The notes under the pieces are model-generated. The model did no database searches and was not told the origin of the DNA. It saw nothing but the letters and a program-made list of their open reading frames with translations. This document shows positions 45,611 through 53,405 of a DNA stretch of 64,000 bases, piece after piece. Source of the stretch: Nitrospira sp. (GTDB lineage Bacteria; Nitrospirota; Nitrospiria; Nitrospirales; Nitrospiraceae); assembly GCA_030653545.1 (NCBI GenBank), contig JAURZE010000025.1, forward strand, positions 62,001 to 126,000, in the 5' to 3' direction. How positions within the stretch are numbered: the stretch's first letter is position 1; every line of letters starts with the position of its first letter. The position numbers were made by a program, and so were the translations under genes.

Positions 45611-46861
45611 GTGTATCGCAAGCTCATTCTGGAGAACGGGGTCCGCTTGGTCAGCGAGCGGATCCCCACTCTCAAGTCGGTCACCGTCGGCATTTGGGTC
45701 AACGCCGGATCGCGTGACGAGCAGCCGGCACAAGCCGGATATTCCCACTTCATCGAACACATGTTTTTCAAGGGGACGACCAGCCGGTCGGCCACCGACA
45801 TCTCGCGCGAGATCGATGCGCTGGGCGGCGAGATGAATGCCTTTACCACGCGCGAGACCACCACGTTTTATGTGAAAGTGCTCGACCAGCATCTGCCGAA
45901 GGCCCTCGACCTGCTCTCCGATCTCTTGCACCGCTCTAAATTCGCTCCGAAGGATATCGGAAAAGAAAAACAGGTAGTGTTGGAAGAGATCCGCATGGTG
46001 CAGGATGATCCGGAAGATCTTGTCCAGGAGCTCCACACCGGCCAGGTCATGGGCCGTCATCCGCTGGGTCGTCCGATCCTAGGGCGGGCAGCGACGATCG
46101 GGGCGTTGCGGCGGCAGGATCTTCTCGATTACATCGATGCGCGATATCAGCCGCAGGAGATTGTCGTCGCGGTGGCGGGAAGTTTTGATCAGCGAGCGCT
46201 TGAGCGGACCATTGCGCGCGAGTTCGGCCGTCGTCGTCCGTCATCGCCGCAGCCGCATGTGCGCCGTGCGCCGGAGATTCTCGGCGGCGTGGTGATGCAG
46301 CAAAAGAAATTGGAGCAGGTCCATCTCTGCATCGGCATGAAGGGCATATCTGCCGGCCATCCGGATCGGTATGCCGCGTATGTGTTGAACAGCGTGCTGG
46401 GCGGGAGTGTGAGTTCGCGACTGTTTCAGGAAGTCAGAGAAAAGCGGGGACTGGCCTATTCGATCTATTCCTTTCTCTCCGGCTATTCAGACGGCGGGAC
46501 CATCACCGTGTATGCGGGAACGCGCCAGAAAGAAGTCGAGCGGGTGCTCGACGTCATTCGCCGCGAGATCCGTCGCATGGCTGCCAACGGCATCACGCGG
46601 GATGAGTTGAAGCGAACGAAGGATCAAATGAAGGGCAGCCTGATGCTCAGTTTGGAGAGTTCGCATAGCCGGATGAATAAGCTGGCGAAGGACGAGATGA
46701 TCAAAGGCAAACACACGTCACTCGATGACATGACGCGGGCCATCGATGCCGTCACATTCAAGCAGATGGAGCGAGTCGCACAGGAACTTCTTGACGAAAA
46801 ATCGATGGCGATCACCGGTCTTGGGCCTCTGTCCGCGCGCCAACTCCAGCTCGCGAGATGA
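45611..46861 (+). CDS. M16-family zinc metallopeptidase
   Basis: A 416-residue peptidase. The inverted zinc motif HxxEH is AGYSHFIEHMFFKGTTSRSATDISREI, with the distal glutamate in EEIRMVQDDPEDLV; the Arg/Tyr pair (VREKRGLAYSIYSF) is also present. Members include processing peptidases and PqqF-like enzymes; bacterial gene neighbours of pnp of this kind are common and their substrate is unknown. The start GTG 45611 lies 5 bp after pnp and has no clear Shine-Dalgarno, so it is probably coupled. A much earlier in-frame ATG (45230) overlaps pnp and is a shadow. Confidence 0.9.
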   Translation: MYRKLILENGVRLVSERIPTLKSVTVGIWVNAGSRDEQPAQAGYSHFIEHMFFKGTTSRSATDISREIDALGGEMNAFTTRETTTFYVKVLDQHLPKALDLLSDLLHRSKFAPKDIGKEKQVVLEEIRMVQDDPEDLVQELHTGQVMGRHPLGRPILGRAATIGALRRQDLLDYIDARYQPQEIVVAVAGSFDQRALERTIAREFGRRRPSSPQPHVRRAPEILGGVVMQQKKLEQVHLCIGMKGISAGHPDRYAAYVLNSVLGGSVSSRLFQEVREKRGLAYSIYSFLSGYSDGGTITVYAGTRQKEVERVLDVIRREIRRMAANGITRDELKRTKDQMKGSLMLSLESSHSRMNKLAKDEMIKGKHTSLDDMTRAIDAVTFKQMERVAQELLDEKSMAITGLGPLSARQLQLAR

Positions 46862-47200
46862 GAATTTTTTAATAGAGCTGTATTTCTGACAGAATAAATG
46901 ATTAAGATAATGCTGCATAACGTGTTGTTGTGTATGATGTTTACCTGTGGATTAAAAGTTTATTAGAGGGTCAAACATTTTCTTGACACTAATTGACCGT
47001 TTCAGTACGATTGCGCCGGTCTAGTGAACTAGAAATTTTAAACGGGGAACAACCGCGAAAGAGAAAGAGGGAAGGGGGTGGCCGAACACTTTCTCCTGAG
47101 CTTTGTAGCCTCTGATCATTCGGTAGTAGATGCATTCATCGCTTTCAAGGTGAACGTTCATTAGGTTGTGGGTTTTATTTTTATGAAGGAGGGACTAGGT
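46862..47200 (+). promoter_or_regulatory. AT-rich intergenic region with a promoter for the secreted pair
   Basis: A 339-bp gap, richer in A and T than its surroundings. It contains TTGACA (46983-46988), a 17-bp spacer and TACGAT (47006-47011), a good sigma-70 promoter, 190 bp before the start at 47201. No gene of its own was recognised. A second, weaker TTGACC at 46993 overlaps it. Position and strong ribosome binding sites suggest high expression of the two downstream secreted proteins. Confidence 0.55.
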
Positions 47201-47710
47201 ATGAAGAGGGTCTTAGTACTAGCCGCCGTTGCAGTGTTTTCTGTGGCTGGCTTGCTATCGGCCGGATTTGCCGTGGCCGCCGATGCTCCAGCTGGAGGTG
47301 GTCCTGCCACCGACGTGGTCGGTGGAAAGGTCATGAAGGGCGATGCCGCCAAGACGCTTCAGGGTCGTGTCTGGTCGCAGTGGGCCGACAATCCCGATAG
47401 CGAATTGCTGTTCGGTATTCAGTATTGGAACACCGGTGATCCTGCTTCAGGCACTCCGGCCGGCCGTTCATCAACCATGATGGACGTCAAGCCTCCGGAT
47501 CCTTTGGTCACCTGCTGCGGCTGGGGCTTTGTCGGCGGCACCGATAAGAACAACGCCTACGCAGGCTGGTACCATGCCGCCACGACGGTGCGTTTGGCTG
47601 TGAAGGACAAGGCGTTGATGGATCAGATCATCAAGGCTGCGCAGGAACTCGTGGCCATGGAAGTCACCTTGGACGGCCGGACCATCACCGGATTCAAGGT
47701 TCTCAAGTAA
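47201..47710 (+). CDS. Secreted protein of unknown function, TLQGRV family member 1
   Basis: A 169-residue protein. ATG 47201 is preferred because AGGAGGG lies six bases upstream; an in-frame ATG at 47168 precedes this site. The signal peptide is MKRVLVLAAVAVFSVAGLLSAGFAVAADAP. The mature part begins in low-complexity PAGGGPATD, then carries KTLQGRVWSQWADNPDSELLFGIQYWN, WGFVGGTDKNNAYAGW and a beta-rich C terminus (MEVTLDGRTITGFKVLK). The motif TLQGRV is also present in the next gene, suggesting a shared fold or binding site. Function unknown; a strong transcription/translation start hints at high abundance. Confidence 0.7.
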   Translation: MKRVLVLAAVAVFSVAGLLSAGFAVAADAPAGGGPATDVVGGKVMKGDAAKTLQGRVWSQWADNPDSELLFGIQYWNTGDPASGTPAGRSSTMMDVKPPDPLVTCCGWGFVGGTDKNNAYAGWYHAATTVRLAVKDKALMDQIIKAAQELVAMEVTLDGRTITGFKVLK

Positions 47711-47760
47711 TCGATTTCATCACGCTTTATTCTTTCATGTTGTTGAAGGAGGATTCGATT

Positions 47761-48435
47761 ATGAAGCTTCAGAAGCAAGGCGGGGCCGTGATGGCAGCTG
47801 TTGCCCTGGTAGTCGGCATGGCTTCCAGCGCGCTGGCCATCGAAGCATTTCAAGAGCGGTTTGAGTGGGGCGATCTCAGCAAGCCCACCACATTGCAGGG
47901 TCGAGTGATTATTCTCGATCCCTACGATGAAGCTGTGTGGATCAACGTGTCCGTGTTCGGCGGAGCCGCCGAGAGCGGCTTGTTCTGGCAGAAAGTTCAC
48001 CCGGGCAAGAACCTCAAGTTCTATGCCGACAAGGGTGCCTGGGAAGAGTTGAAGAAGATGGGCCGTCCGCATTCCGGACCGGCCGCGGCGAAGGAAGTGC
48101 CTCCGGGCAGCACGACCGACCTGGTCGAATTTGTCGTTACGGAGACCGAGCAGAATCATCGTGTGATCTCTTCTGTGAAGAAGCTTCCGGAAGTTGCTGG
48201 TGCACCAGGGAAGACTCTGAGCATCTCTGCCCTTCGTTTGAAGGAATGTGCGGGGAAGAATCAGAATACCGATGCCGGTTGTTCGGCAGCGGTGCAGCAG
48301 CTGAACACTTCGCCGAAGTCTCCGGATGGAGCCAGCATCCCGCAGCTATATGATGTGATGGTGCCAGGAGGACACACTCTCGGTGGGTTGATCCCTTGGG
48401 AAGCCAAGTATAACTTGCCAGGCGCTGCTCACTAG
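47761..48435 (+). CDS. Secreted protein of unknown function, TLQGRV family member 2
   Basis: A 224-residue protein. ATG 47761 has AAGGAGG seven bases upstream; the open frame to 47737 lacks it. Signal peptide MKLQKQGGAVMAAVALVVGMASSALAIEA. The mature part has TTLQGRVIILDPYDEAVWINVSVFGGA, the shared motif, then KVHPGKNLKFYADKGAWEELKK, a linker, CAGKNQNTDAGC with two cysteines, and YDVMVPGGHTLGGLIPWEAKYN. A strong terminator at 48460 ends the two-gene unit. Its TLQGRV is at almost the same distance from the signal peptide as in gene 1 of the pair. Function unknown. Confidence 0.7.
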   Translation: MKLQKQGGAVMAAVALVVGMASSALAIEAFQERFEWGDLSKPTTLQGRVIILDPYDEAVWINVSVFGGAAESGLFWQKVHPGKNLKFYADKGAWEELKKMGRPHSGPAAAKEVPPGSTTDLVEFVVTETEQNHRVISSVKKLPEVAGAPGKTLSISALRLKECAGKNQNTDAGCSAAVQQLNTSPKSPDGASIPQLYDVMVPGGHTLGGLIPWEAKYNLPGAAH

Positions 48436-48459
48436 TCTCGTTTCTAGTTTCTCTTGAGG

Positions 48460-48497
48460 GGCGGCCGTTCCTTGCGGAACGGCCGCCTTTTTCTTTT
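48460..48497 (+). terminator. Strong Rho-independent terminator of the secreted pair
   Basis: A perfect 12-bp stem (48460-48471 GGCGGCCGTTCC with 48476-48487) and TTGC loop, followed by TTTTTCTTTT. Confidence 0.9.
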
Positions 48498-48639
48498 CCT
48501 GTGTATGGACTCCTGTCGACGAAGCTTGAAAGAAAGCGCGTGGGAGGGAGACTGAGAACCGCAGTCAATCATCCAGACCAGACGCGGCACTACCCGTTAA
48601 ATGAATCTCGGCAGGCACCGCCAGCAGATGGCAGAGCTT

Positions 48640-49308
48640 CTAACAGCTCTTTGGTCGTCGTGAGTTGTTCCCTGCAAAGAGAACAAGCCCAGCGAGCAGC
48701 GCGCTGATCCCAATGACAATCGCGCTCATCGTGCGTAGCTGACGATCTGCCTCGTCTCGGACTTCACCCGCGATCTTCGCAACGACTTCCAATAACAGAT
48801 CCAGCTCTAGCGTGACCGCGATAAGTTTGGACCCCGCCCGTTCCGCGGCGTTTTCCTCCGCGGCATCGCGCAGGCGTTGCGCTTCTTCCGGTGAGGTGGT
48901 CTTCCAGCGTTGTTGGATCAGACCGATGGTTTGATCGGAGGTAGCCATATAATCTGCGAGGCGTGCTTTGACCGCCTGGAGTTCCCGCAGCTCATCGGCC
49001 ATTCCGCTTCTCTTGACGGTCGCGCTATTGGCGGCTTTGATGAATCGTTCGATGGGTTGCTCGATCTGGGCCCGTCGTTCCGTTAAGCCGGAAGTAATAC
49101 TCTCAAAGTCCTTTTGCGAATCGGATTCGATCGCGCGCAGAATCGACGTGCGGTAGCGAATCAGTTTGGCATTGATGTGGCCGAGATCGGTAGTGGCCAG
49201 GGTGTACTCCGCATAGATGACCCGGAGTTCCTGATCCACGCGGCTGAGAGAATAGCCGCCCCAGAGACCGGTCAACAGGATGAGCAAACTGATGACGATA
49301 GTTCTCAT
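48640..49308 (-). CDS. Four-helix-bundle sensor membrane protein without output domain
   Basis: A 222-residue protein. TM1 is IVISLLILLTGLWGGYSL near the N terminus (ATG 49308 rather than 49344, which adds 12 residues), TM2 is MSAIVIGISALLAGLVLFAG near the C terminus, and between them is a 150-residue helical, charged periplasmic domain (EYTLATTDLGHINAKLIRYRTSIL, GLIQQRWKTTSPEEAQRLRDA). This is the 4HB_MCP_1-like sensor domain of chemoreceptors and histidine kinases, but no HAMP or signalling domain follows. It may be a truncated receptor or a stand-alone sensor. No chemotaxis gene is near. Confidence 0.75.
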   Translation of the reverse strand: MRTIVISLLILLTGLWGGYSLSRVDQELRVIYAEYTLATTDLGHINAKLIRYRTSILRAIESDSQKDFESITSGLTERRAQIEQPIERFIKAANSATVKRSGMADELRELQAVKARLADYMATSDQTIGLIQQRWKTTSPEEAQRLRDAAEENAAERAGSKLIAVTLELDLLLEVVAKIAGEVRDEADRQLRTMSAIVIGISALLAGLVLFAGNNSRRPKSC

Positions 49309-49385
49309 GTCCAAACAATACCGGATTGAGGCAGAGAACACCATCGTAGGACAACGGATCGGCGGATCCGCAACGGCGGTTCACG

Positions 49386-50006
49386 CTACTTGAGTCTGAT
49401 CGTTCGGCCTTCGATCTTGAGATCTCCAAGAAATTTTTTGAAATTGGTTTCAAAAAGATCGGTCGTCAAATGCTGGGCATCCTCTTGATCGAACCAAAAC
49501 ACCCGATCGCTTCCCGTTCCGGAGACCTTTTCTCGCACGATGCTCTCATCGGTGTGGTTTATGATCTGAAATGCCAGCGCGTTCGTTGCCGTGAGATCCG
49601 TATGCATGAATCCGCTCTTGGCATCCACGGACAGGCTCTGAATGGTCCCTGCAATTGTGATGTCCGCGCCGTCGCTTCCCCGCGTGCGTGCCATGAACGT
49701 TTTCCAGCCCTGCCGGTTCAGGTAGTCGATGAGAGCTTGGGCCGTGGCTTTGGCCGCGCTCCCGCTCGGTAGATCAAAATAGCTGATTCCACCCCAGAGG
49801 TGCGATCGTGTTCCGAGATGGGCTTGGTTGAGCCTCTGATCTTCGAAGGGGAGTATCGCAATCCTGGGTCCCGGGGTGGCCGAGGCGGTTCCGCCTCCCG
49901 GAGTGATTCCAGGAATAGCAACATCGATACGTTCGCCCTTGCCGGCACAGGCTCCCAGGACAAGCATCCCGATGCACAACAGAATCCGACAGGATAGACG
50001 ATTCAC
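49386..50006 (-). CDS. Lipoprotein of unknown function
   Basis: A 206-residue protein with a lipobox (LVLGAC; signal peptide MNRLSCRILLCIGMLVLGAC), so probably a lipid-anchored outer- or inner-membrane protein. After a flexible glycine/threonine-rich stretch come RIAILPFEDQRLNQAHLGTRSHLWGG, GWKTFMARTRGSDGADITIAGTIQSLSV and TDLTATNALAFQIINHTDE; the opening resembles YajG/LptE-like folds and other outer-membrane assembly lipoproteins. The FEDQR start is typical of proteins that report an assembly level. Upstream on the same strand is Pal, 51 bp away. Confidence 0.65.
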   Translation of the reverse strand: MNRLSCRILLCIGMLVLGACAGKGERIDVAIPGITPGGGTASATPGPRIAILPFEDQRLNQAHLGTRSHLWGGISYFDLPSGSAAKATAQALIDYLNRQGWKTFMARTRGSDGADITIAGTIQSLSVDAKSGFMHTDLTATNALAFQIINHTDESIVREKVSGTGSDRVFWFDQEDAQHLTTDLFETNFKKFLGDLKIEGRTIRLK

Positions 50007-50057
50007 AATTGCCTCCTTCTCCCGATGGATGGCCCAGGCAAAGTATCCGGGGAAAGT

Positions 50058-50711
50058 TTATTGCACGACGAAATGCGCGCGACGATTGTATTTCCAGCAG
50101 CCTTCGTTGTGTTCGTTGCAAGCAGGTTTCACTTCACCATAACTGGTGGTGTGAAGACGGGAGGCAGGAATCCCGAGATTTTCCAAGTATCGCTTGGCGG
50201 ATTTGGCGCGCTTTTCTCCCAACACGAGATTGTAGGCCAGAGTCCCGCGCTCGTCGCAATGACCTTCGATCAATAAAGACTTGCCGGAAGCGTTCCGAAT
50301 CCAATGGCCGTTGCGTTCGAGCACGGGCTGCGCGTCGGTGCGAATGGTGTACTGATCGAAATCAAAATAGATATCTCCGATTCCAGTGGAGTCCGGAGTC
50401 ATGACGGAACCGTTCTCATGCAATGAAGCCGCGTTGTTTGACGGGATGGTCTTTCCTGGTGCCTGGGCGGGAATCTGGTTGGTTTGCGTTTCTTGGGTGC
50501 GGGATACTCCGCTCTCCGCAGGAGGCTCTATCGAGGCGATCCGATCCGGTCGGACAGTCTCGGAAGGAGTCTGGCCTTTTGTCGTCATGGATTGGTCTCC
50601 TGCGCTCGAGGACAATTGCTTGTTCGCGCAGCCAGCACCGCCAAGGATGAGACCACTCATGGATAGGGCTGTCCCCAGATACAAGAGAGTTCGGCTCAGG
50701 CGTCGGATCAT
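50058..50711 (-). CDS. pal: Peptidoglycan-associated OmpA-family lipoprotein
   Basis: A 217-residue protein with a lipobox (LILGGAGC) after MIRRLSRTLLYLGTALSMSG. After a serine/proline/threonine-rich linker comes the OmpA C-terminal domain: GIGDIYFDFDQYTIRTDAQPVLERNGHWI, LLIEGHCDERGTLAYNLVLGEKRAKSAKRYLENLGI, YGEVKPACNEHNEGCWKYNRRAHFVVQ; the D and R of NEHNEGCWKYNRR match the diaminopimelate-binding site. Tol-Pal role in outer-membrane integrity. No tol genes are adjacent in the window. Confidence 0.9.
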   Translation of the reverse strand: MIRRLSRTLLYLGTALSMSGLILGGAGCANKQLSSSAGDQSMTTKGQTPSETVRPDRIASIEPPAESGVSRTQETQTNQIPAQAPGKTIPSNNAASLHENGSVMTPDSTGIGDIYFDFDQYTIRTDAQPVLERNGHWIRNASGKSLLIEGHCDERGTLAYNLVLGEKRAKSAKRYLENLGIPASRLHTTSYGEVKPACNEHNEGCWKYNRRAHFVVQ

Positions 50712-50719
50712 TGGTCACC

Positions 50720-50911
50720 TCATGGCTGATTGAGAGTGGGTGGCATACCGTTGAGGCTTCCACCGCCGATCATCATGAACGTTGCATAGGCCGAGACGGG
50801 AAGGGGTGTCGCTACCGGTGAAGGTGCGACGAGGGCCAGAACCTCACAGATGTTGGGAGAATTCCTGCTGACTCTCGGGCGTGGCGATTCACCGGCGAAG
50901 AGCGTCGTCAT
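50720..50911 (-). CDS. Possible small protein coupled to a 34-residue membrane peptide
   Basis: A 63-codon ORF (MTTLFAGESPRPRVSRNSPNI..., ending LNGMPPTLNQP) 8 bp before pal. Its ATG overlaps the stop of the 34-residue ORF in an ATGA arrangement, and GAGGAAA lies just upstream. The protein is not similar to anything I recognise and lacks a membrane segment; it could be a coding artefact. The overlap is the main support. Confidence 0.35.
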   Translation of the reverse strand: MTTLFAGESPRPRVSRNSPNICEVLALVAPSPVATPLPVSAYATFMMIGGGSLNGMPPTLNQP

Positions 50912-51012
50912 TTTCCTCGCGGTTGATCTTTGTATACGCGTAGGATAAGCAACACCAGGAGAATCCCGAACACCAGGCTCCCCCCAAGAAAGATCATGCC
51001 GTCAGTCGACAT
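50908..51012 (-). CDS. 34-residue single-pass membrane peptide
   Basis: A short ORF of 34 codons, MSTDGMIFLGGSLVFGILLVLLILRVYKDQPRGK, with one hydrophobic segment (about 7-24) and a basic C terminus, the layout of small membrane peptides such as CcoQ or CydX-like subunits. The weak upstream A-rich stretch is its only candidate Shine-Dalgarno. It ends in ATGA overlap with the following ORF. This reading is inference from hydropathy and overlap. Confidence 0.5.
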   Translation of the reverse strand: MSTDGMIFLGGSLVFGILLVLLILRVYKDQPRGK

Positions 51013-51239
51013 AGTGAGAGTTTCTTTTCTATCAGTGCGAGATCACGTTCATGTCTGTTCGTGAATTCGACGGTTGTAGCCTCAGAGGCACATTCCTCTT
51101 CTAGCCAGCTCACACGATGCGAGGCCAGACCAGTCGTTCACGCGAGCGAAGTGGGGGGCTGCAAGAGAGGCCGTTTCTTACAGCCCATTATTCGGTCGTT
51201 CCCATGGGACTGATCTGGCGTCTCGATCATCGGGCATGC

Positions 51240-51470
51240 TCATATCGTAGTCGCGCTGCATCGTCGGCAGATGGTGTGACACCACCAGACTTGGGAGGCC
51301 TTCAACTTGTGCAGGGTAAAAAAGCGCGATTGGTCTGTCCATTTCTCTTCACTGGCCTGTTCTGAAAGACCGTCTTGCACACGATGACAGGTGTCGCACA
51401 GTAAGACGACGGGGTCGCTCATCCATCGTCCCGGCGTGATGGTCTGTTCGGACTCGTCCTCTAACTCCAT
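51240..51470 (-). CDS. Small zinc-ribbon-like protein after a two-component system
   Basis: About 76 residues (ATG 51470; a GTG at 51476 is also possible). LCDTCHRVQDGLSEQASEEKWTD and WWCHTICRRCS give CxxC and HTxCxxC pairs resembling the small zinc-binding motif found at the end of PAS or response-regulator-type sensor proteins (pattern CxxCkxirD...W...H(S/T)xCxxC). It lies 122 bp after the LuxR-type response regulator and on the same strand, which supports a regulatory role. Independent of this, it is too short to assign safely. Confidence 0.5.
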   Translation of the reverse strand: MELEDESEQTITPGRWMSDPVVLLCDTCHRVQDGLSEQASEEKWTDQSRFFTLHKLKASQVWWCHTICRRCSATTI

Positions 51471-51598
51471 CTGCACCGCCTGGCCACAGAAGCCGTTGAG
51501 TCATGCCACTCTATACGGACTATTATCGCGGGATGGAACTCGTAATTCCCGAAGGTGCCGGATGTATTTTTACGAGGAAGCGGTCGATTCTGATGGGC

Positions 51599-52243
51599 CT
51601 AGGTGGGGGTAACAATTCCGTGGGACAGCGCATATTTGATCAAGTCAGCCGTATTCTCCAACTGCAAGAGTTCCAGGATTTGCCCCTTATGGAATTCAAC
51701 GGTTCTCGGTGAAATGTTCAGCACATTAGCGATGTCTTTGGCGGTGCGCCCTTCGGTAAGAAGTTGAAGAACTTCCTTCTGCCGCAGAGTGAGGCCGCCG
51801 GCGCCATTGGCCTTTTCGGATGGGGTGGCGAGAAAGACGGCCAGGAGGTCCTTGGTAATGAGCGGGGTAATATACGAGTGCCCGGCAAGGACCGCTCGGA
51901 TCGCCTGCTCCAACTCATCGACCGCTGATCGTTTCAGGACATAGGCAGAGGCGCCGGCTTCAAACGCAGAGCGAACATATTCCGTGTCCGCATGCATCGT
52001 GACGAAGATCAGCTTGGCCATCGGGCACACTTTTTTGAGATGGGCAGCCGCATCAATGCCGTTCAGGAGGGGCATCGACACGTCGAGTATAATGATGTCC
52101 GGCTGAAGGGCTTTGGCCGACTCGATCAGTGCGCGACCGTCTGCGGCGGTGCCGACAAGGTCGTACCGGCCTTCCAGAATACGTTTGAAGCCTTCAATGA
52201 TGAGCGCGTGGTCGTCGGCCAGCAGAACGCGGGGTTTATGCAC
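51599..52243 (-). CDS. NarL/LuxR-family response regulator
   Basis: A 214-residue protein. Receiver: acidic pair D10-D11 (LLADDHALI), phospho-acceptor D54 (IIILDVSMPLLNG), threonine in LIFVTMHAD and lysine in SAYVLKRSA. C-terminal LuxR-type DNA-binding helix-turn-helix LTLRQKEVLQLLTEGRTAKDIANVLNISPRTVEFHKGQIL. Paired with the histidine kinase upstream (its ATG lies 8 bp inside the kinase gene's end), as in NarL-like systems. Targets unknown. Confidence 0.95.
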   Translation of the reverse strand: MHKPRVLLADDHALIIEGFKRILEGRYDLVGTAADGRALIESAKALQPDIIILDVSMPLLNGIDAAAHLKKVCPMAKLIFVTMHADTEYVRSAFEAGASAYVLKRSAVDELEQAIRAVLAGHSYITPLITKDLLAVFLATPSEKANGAGGLTLRQKEVLQLLTEGRTAKDIANVLNISPRTVEFHKGQILELLQLENTADLIKYALSHGIVTPT

Positions 52244-53405
52244 GGGGTGCTCCTGTAGTCAGGGGAATCTCAACATGGATATGGGTGCCCTGGGAGGGCG
52301 TAGAATCGATTCCGAATCGACCCTTCGCCAGGCGAACCCGTTCTTTCATGCTGAGAAGCCCCAGGTGTGCTCGGGTCTGCGAGAGTTGCGCCTGGTCGAA
52401 TCCCTTGCCGTTGTCATGGACAGAGAGAGACACGAGATCGTCTTCGCAGATCAACTCGACTTCAACCTGGGAGGCGTGGGCGTGGCGGACGATGTTGCTC
52501 AGACTTTCCTGTACGATCCGATAGAGGCAGATCGCCATTTCTGCGGGGAGCCCCGTCGTAGGATCCCGATGGACATAGGATATCTTGATTCCTGTGCGGG
52601 TGGAGAAATCATCGATCTGGCGTCGAATGGCTTTCACGAGCCCGAGATCGTCGAGGATGGAGGGGTGAAACCGGTAGGCCATCTGGCGTACGTCATCAGA
52701 GACAATGGTCAGCCGGTCGGAGACCAGCCGAATCGTCGAGCGGAGCGAGTGTGCGTCGGAGGACTCGTCTTTCTCAGCCTGCCGCAAATCCATTGAGAGC
52801 ATGGCGAGCCGTTGATTGATATCGTCGTGGAGGTCCCGGGAAATCCGTCTGCGATCCTCTTCCTGCGCCGTGAGGAGTTGTCCGGCTAACGCGCGCAGAT
52901 CCTCCCGGCTCTGTCGAAGTTCCCGCTGATTCGCCTGCAACACGGCTTCACTGTTCCGAAGCGATTGTTCCGTCTCTGCTCGCTCGGCGATTTCCTCAAC
53001 CAGGGTATTGTTGACGGTTGCCAGTTCCTGGGTGCGTTGTTGAACGCGTATTTCGAGGTCATCATGGGCACGTTGCAACGTGTCCTCTGCCCGGCGCTGA
53101 TGAAGGAAGAACAATACCGGTAGCCAGATGGCCGTCAAACTAAAGAGCCGGTTCGTGACGCCCATCCAAAGGGGAACTCCGTCGAGCGTGGGGCTCAGAA
53201 TCACGTCGGCCATGGTCAGCACGGAACATATGGAGGCGGTGATCACCGGCCCTGTACGGTTCGGTAGCAGGAACGACAGAATGACGAGTCCCCCGTAGAG
53301 AACGCCGTTTCCTATTCCCAGCGGGAGGTAGAGGTCGAGACAGAACAGGGCGATCCCCAGACCGATGATCACCAAGAGGAGTCGTTGATTGGCATTGACT
53401 GCCAT
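52236..53405 (-). CDS. HisKA_3-type sensor histidine kinase
   Basis: A 389-residue protein. N-terminal membrane region of about four helices (residues 1-110, MASE-like layout with LLLVIIGLGIALFCLDLYLPLGIGNGVLYGGLVILSFLL), a coiled-coil linker (RRAEDTLQRAHDDLEIRVQQRTQELATVNN), the HisKA_3 phosphoacceptor segment RRRISRDLHDDINQRLAMLSMDL with its histidine, and the HATPase (ESLSNIVRHAHAS, VHDNGKGFD). Partner is the LuxR-type regulator downstream with 8-bp overlap. Signal unknown; NarX-like nitrate sensing is not supported because the extracytoplasmic sensor is missing. Confidence 0.95.
   Translation of the reverse strand: MAVNANQRLLLVIIGLGIALFCLDLYLPLGIGNGVLYGGLVILSFLLPNRTGPVITASICSVLTMADVILSPTLDGVPLWMGVTNRLFSLTAIWLPVLFFLHQRRAEDTLQRAHDDLEIRVQQRTQELATVNNTLVEEIAERAETEQSLRNSEAVLQANQRELRQSREDLRALAGQLLTAQEEDRRRISRDLHDDINQRLAMLSMDLRQAEKDESSDAHSLRSTIRLVSDRLTIVSDDVRQMAYRFHPSILDDLGLVKAIRRQIDDFSTRTGIKISYVHRDPTTGLPAEMAICLYRIVQESLSNIVRHAHASQVEVELICEDDLVSLSVHDNGKGFDQAQLSQTRAHLGLLSMKERVRLAKGRFGIDSTPSQGTHIHVEIPLTTGAPRA

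Follow-up and report, generated by a model that had tools for sequence, protein, structure and literature searches.

A conserved pair of putatively exported proteins in the Nitrospirales with a predicted, strongly diverged OB-type domain

Two adjacent genes of a Nitrospira genome, here called P1 and P2, make up an operon that is conserved, together with its promoter, well beyond the genus. We consider it reasonably probable that their putatively exported products share one strongly diverged OB domain, in which the motif TLQGRV common to both would be strand 1. The pair is a promising candidate for a function peculiar to the nitrite-oxidising way of life of Nitrospira, because the pairing is nearly universal, strongly conserved and lineage-specific, and because the proteins appear to be exported and have a conserved promoter of their own. 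On a global scale Nitrospira rank among the chief oxidisers of nitrite, and little is understood of their envelope and periplasm. The predicted OB assignment makes an unnamed motif a testable structural hypothesis.

The genes lie in the window, a stretch of 64,000 nucleotides of Nitrospira sp. contig JAURZE010000025.1, of which a model had made a sequence-only reading. Its description of two adjacent open reading frames, each with a signal-peptide-like N-terminus and each carrying TLQGRV, was accurate, and the locus is laid out as follows.

46983-47011, forward strand: sigma-70-type promoter (TTGACA-17-TACGAT), very probable from scan and upstream alignment, common to both genes.
47012-47200, forward strand: untranslated leader of about 190 nt, read from the sequence, with AAGGAGGGACTAGGT directly 5′ of the start codon.
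47201-47710, forward strand: P1, an intact open reading frame for a putatively exported protein of 169 amino acids; predicted OB-type domain at residues 49-169.
47761-48435, forward strand: P2, an intact open reading frame for a putatively exported protein of 224 amino acids; predicted OB domain at residues 40-143.
48456-48491, forward strand: intrinsic terminator, a perfect 12-bp GC-rich stem followed by a T run.

The Shine-Dalgarno sites, of the AGGAGGG and AAGGAGG type, and the 12-bp-stem terminator are present in the sequence as first described. Both ribosome-binding sites are strong (AAGGAGGG 5′ of the P1 start, AAGGAGG 5′ of the P2 start), and the terminator forms 16 pairs including G-U, among them the perfect 12-bp stem GGCGGCCGTTCC. 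Rfam gave only weak matches, lying over the terminator; the one to L20_leader scored 29 bits where the gathering score is 58.7, and was rejected. The common promoter at 46983-47011 proposed by the earlier reading is borne out by conservation upstream of P1 in families f1 and f3, and not by scanning. The site scores 10 of 12 matches, and the scan found one promoter-like site where 1.1 were expected; at a chance rate of about one per 2.5 kb, the scan alone is no proof of a promoter. In the upstream alignment of f1 and f3, every sequence has the -35 core CTTGAC, the -10 region AGTAcCAT is almost unchanged, and the flanking sequence has mostly drifted; the promoter is for this reason very probably real. 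The leader of about 190 nt is unusually long and is poorly kept except near the Shine-Dalgarno site; its last 20 nt are strongly conserved in the same alignment, and an Rfam search of 46800-48700 gave no match to the leader.

Searching the genomes of the Nitrospira family (f1) for the tandem pair recovered P1 in 165 and P2 in 169 of 175 genomes, nearly always in single copy, and both proteins in 22 of 22 genera. The two genes share a strand, with 39-90 bp between them at loci where both were read and 50 bp in the window. The genome G203, a candidate for an independent loss of P2, was rejected as such; P2 is cut there by the contig end. The pair also occurs in two further families of the order (f2 and f3), is absent from the sampled f4, and did not turn up in the genomes sampled from the remaining families of the class. 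Its neighbours comprise truB, rpsO, pnp, an M16 peptidase gene, mutS, a lapA-like gene, tsaE, nnr and pdxJ. The order truB-rpsO-pnp-M16 peptidase-P1-P2, facing mutS, is shared by f1 and f3, whereas f2 has different genes upstream of a pair that still faces mutS. At the f2 loci L196-L201, a response-regulator gene akin to that at 51599-52243 of the window stands upstream of P1, replacing the M16 peptidase gene.

Both N-termini are hydrophobic and carry an A-x-A type cleavage site (AVAA/DAP in P1, ALA/IEAF in P2), and by inspection of the sequences both features are kept in the relatives of each protein. Mature P1 averages 79% identity within the family, compared with 82% for PNPase, 67% for MutS, 67% for the M16 peptidase and 59% for TruB. 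Against four close relatives it shows 16, 3, 39 and 38 synonymous changes and 0, 0, 2 and 3 amino-acid changes, respectively; P1 is under purifying selection. The conserved residues of P1 include the aromatics W61, W76, W108, W123 and Y124, and those of P2 are described as charged or turn residues (I27-E28, E32-E35, W60, W76, E128 and E130-N132), a composition that would fit the binding of a partner or ligand. Between strands 2 and 3, P1 has a long, conserved loop with a CC pair at residues 105-106, present in 119 of 119 unique f1 and f3 proteins and missing in f2. Mature P2 begins with IEAFQERFEWGD and ends in a variable tail; despite this variability 107 of 125 unique relatives have His as the last residue (48430-48432), although f3 mostly has Lys, Gln or Glu there.

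Searches of Pfam, NCBIfam and PDB sequences returned no significant hit for either protein, whether single sequences or profiles were used. A TatA_B_E hit (E 0.03 on P2, 0.008 on a relative) fell below the cut-off and was rejected. The initial statement that no known family is recognised stands at the level of sequence, yet the predicted fold appears to be a known one, OB of a CusF/SilF-like kind.

AlphaFold2, supplied with 76 sequences for P1 and 80 for P2 at about 70-100% identity, returned models of low mean pLDDT (44 for P1, 57 for P2), with most strand and helix elements of P2 above 70. Both models have the strand order b1(TLQGRV)-b2-b3-helix-b4-b5, which is the OB order. Unrelated predicted folds, the outcome that the sequence-only reading had named as counting against a shared domain, did not occur; these are low-confidence models, and with mean pLDDT of 44 and 57 the closure of the barrel is uncertain, above all in P1. 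Foldseek with P2 residues 40-143 placed SilF/CusF first (E 3.8e-4, prob 1.00); in VIA-align the match reached Z 9.8 with an rmsd of 2.1 over 78 residues at 14% identity, the best non-CusF protein scoring Z 8.3, about 1.5 lower. For P1 the best VIA match is also SilF, at a Z of 7.1 that is tied with other OB structures and, being under 8, lies within the range for unrelated models; with so poor a P1 model, the match is only suggestive. OB structures top the match lists of both models. The structure 8bbz_AAA was matched over its residues 14-92 by both P1 49-169 and P2 41-143, so that T52 of P1 and T44 of P2 fall in the same register, as judged from the range ends only. PilY2 (3tdq, Z 7.5) and other small exported OB proteins resemble the pair in its predicted OB topology; no sequence relation was seen, and the middling Z may reflect the common arrangement alone.

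TLQGRV occupies residues 52-57 of P1 and 44-49 of P2, and shuffled pairs of proteins of such composition had an exact 6-mer in common in 0.18% of trials. Relatives of P1 follow the pattern [TSK]L[KQ]GRV (among 119: TLKGRV 54, TLQGRV 45, SLKGRV 8, KLQGRV 6), and those of P2 mostly T[LI]xGRV (among 125: TLQGRV 67, TIQGRV 45). The exact hexamer is therefore local, and what is conserved is the strand pattern. In f2 the mature P1 starts at AETLKGR, so that the motif opens the domain. Pairwise BLASTP of P1 and P2 aligned the motif alone (E 0.16), and hhalign of the two families aligned strands 3-5 (E 0.001, probability 16-21%) with TLQGRV outside the alignment. In two profile-profile tests the real profiles scored 27.8 and 27.4, where the best of 150 column shuffles reached 20.1 and 22.0, respectively.

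A third exported protein, P3 (L221, G000:C22:434608-435351), of 248 amino acids, also has a TxxGRV strand-1 motif. It shares LS-P-T-x-x-GRV-x-x-D with P2 (E 9e-5, outscoring all 100 shuffles), its own LSxPETxxGRVxxxD being akin to P2 strand 1, and it is present in f1-f3 and absent from the sampled f4, a distribution similar to that of the pair. P3 has no Pfam match and belongs to no known family; unlike P1 and P2 it is encoded elsewhere in the genome and has a long tail, with weak or no similarity to P1. P3 is likely a dispersed relative of P2.

OB folds are common and convergent, and OB strand 1 often reads x-G-x-V. Convergence would hence suffice if P1 and P2 were unrelated proteins, merely co-transcribed, with TLQGRV a coincidence. 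The BLASTP alignment restricted to the motif, the variation of the hexamer among relatives and the poor P1 model all suit this explanation; the low chance of a common 6-mer, profile scores above every shuffle, and the agreement of predicted topology and top structural match between the two proteins argue against it, and we hold it to be fairly improbable. The sharing of the motif is probably not coincidental. A strongly diverged common OB domain is the best reading of topology, structural match and register, profile score, the f2 start and P3 taken together; the shared domain with strong divergence first suggested for this pair has good support from these lines, which low-confidence models keep from being conclusive.

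If P1 and P2 do share such a domain, the operon would encode periplasmic proteins each built around one small CusF/SilF-shaped OB barrel, and both would go back to a single ancestral exported OB domain, probably through an old duplication before the Nitrospirales families split. As a near-obligate pair they would most likely be physical partners in the periplasm. Their conserved aromatic and charged surfaces may bind a ligand or partner protein in a binding or scaffolding role, of which copper carriage as by CusF would form no part.

One conceivable role is to assemble or service nitrite oxidoreductase (NXR) or its periplasmic electron carriers. Of the families in the sampled class, f1, f2 and f3 alone yielded NxrB, and these are the families with the pair; 102 of 196 genomes were positive, and the gaps, that in the window genome included, are probably assembly gaps in a multicopy gene. 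Nitrospira NXR has been described as periplasmic (PMC6606698). Gene linkage to nxr was not seen, however, and the co-occurrence is weak evidence of a link since a single evolutionary event may explain the presence and absence of both, so that we rate this role as rather doubtful. We would put forward with still more reserve the fuller proposal that the pair is a two-protein accessory of the Nitrospira-type periplasmic nitrite-oxidation machinery, made of diverged OB barrels that lack the metal site of CusF and forming a core signature of nitrite-oxidising Nitrospirales.

The pair might instead be an abundant structural component of the envelope, for example of the wide Nitrospira periplasm. 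The conserved promoter, strong Shine-Dalgarno sites and lineage-wide conservation would suit such a component, and the two proteins had at first been called abundant-looking. That impression found no backing in codon usage, which gives no sign of exceptional expression: P1 and P2 reach ribosomal level in codon adaptation but come only 15-16 among 57 open reading frames. Codon bias in the window genome is slight, and codon adaptation says nothing here about abundance. The pair showed no self-assembly or cell-wall-binding domain, and a literature search for proteomic mention or expression data returned none. NITMOv2_2496 of N. moscoviensis is exported and among its most transcribed genes (PMC6606698), and was rejected as a counterpart of the pair by position: the pair lies at 4.216 Mb and tag 2496 at about 2.35 Mb, as interpolated from nxrB at 4.274/4.281 Mb in G055, taken as N. 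moscoviensis. The highly transcribed gene appears, by this interpolation, to be another one. P3 was likewise rejected as NITMOv2_2496, not being found at 2.20-2.52 Mb. We consider a structural envelope role unlikely.

The likeness to CusF/SilF raises the question of metal binding. These periplasmic Cu(I)/Ag(I)-binding proteins are, like P1 and P2, small exported OB barrels (predicted so for the pair), and are the top structural match of both models. CusF binds its metal through His36, Met47 and Met49 with Trp44 as a cap (PMC9302797). In 13 sequences from f1, f2 and f3, neither domain has an invariant His or Cys; P2 has no invariant Met, and P1 has only M140, in the helix, and M153, in strand 4. 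The pair also differs from CusF/SilF in lacking a sequence-detectable relationship, as the searches of Pfam, NCBIfam and PDB sequences did not return CusF, and in its two-gene arrangement, the long P1 loop and the N- and C-terminal extensions of P2. Because the CusF ligands have no conserved counterpart in P1 or P2, the pair, CusF-like in predicted shape, is not a CusF member and not a copper chaperone of the CusF type. That P1 and P2 are nonetheless Cu/Ag or other metal chaperones of this type, as the top structural match, the CC pair of P1 (119 of 119) and the C-terminal His of P2 (107 of 125) could suggest, is very unlikely given the missing His/Met/Met site and Trp cap, the loss of CC in f2 and, mostly, of the His in f3, and the lack of cusCBA-like genes among the neighbours read.

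Finally, P2 adjoins mutS directly in nearly all relatives other than the window genome and its nearest relative, L113. In the window a block of about 5 kb (48640-53405) stands between the two genes, as it does, in part at least, in L113; it encodes a 4HB-MCP-like protein, a protein of 206 amino acids, an OmpA/Pal-like protein, a NarL-type regulator and a histidine kinase.
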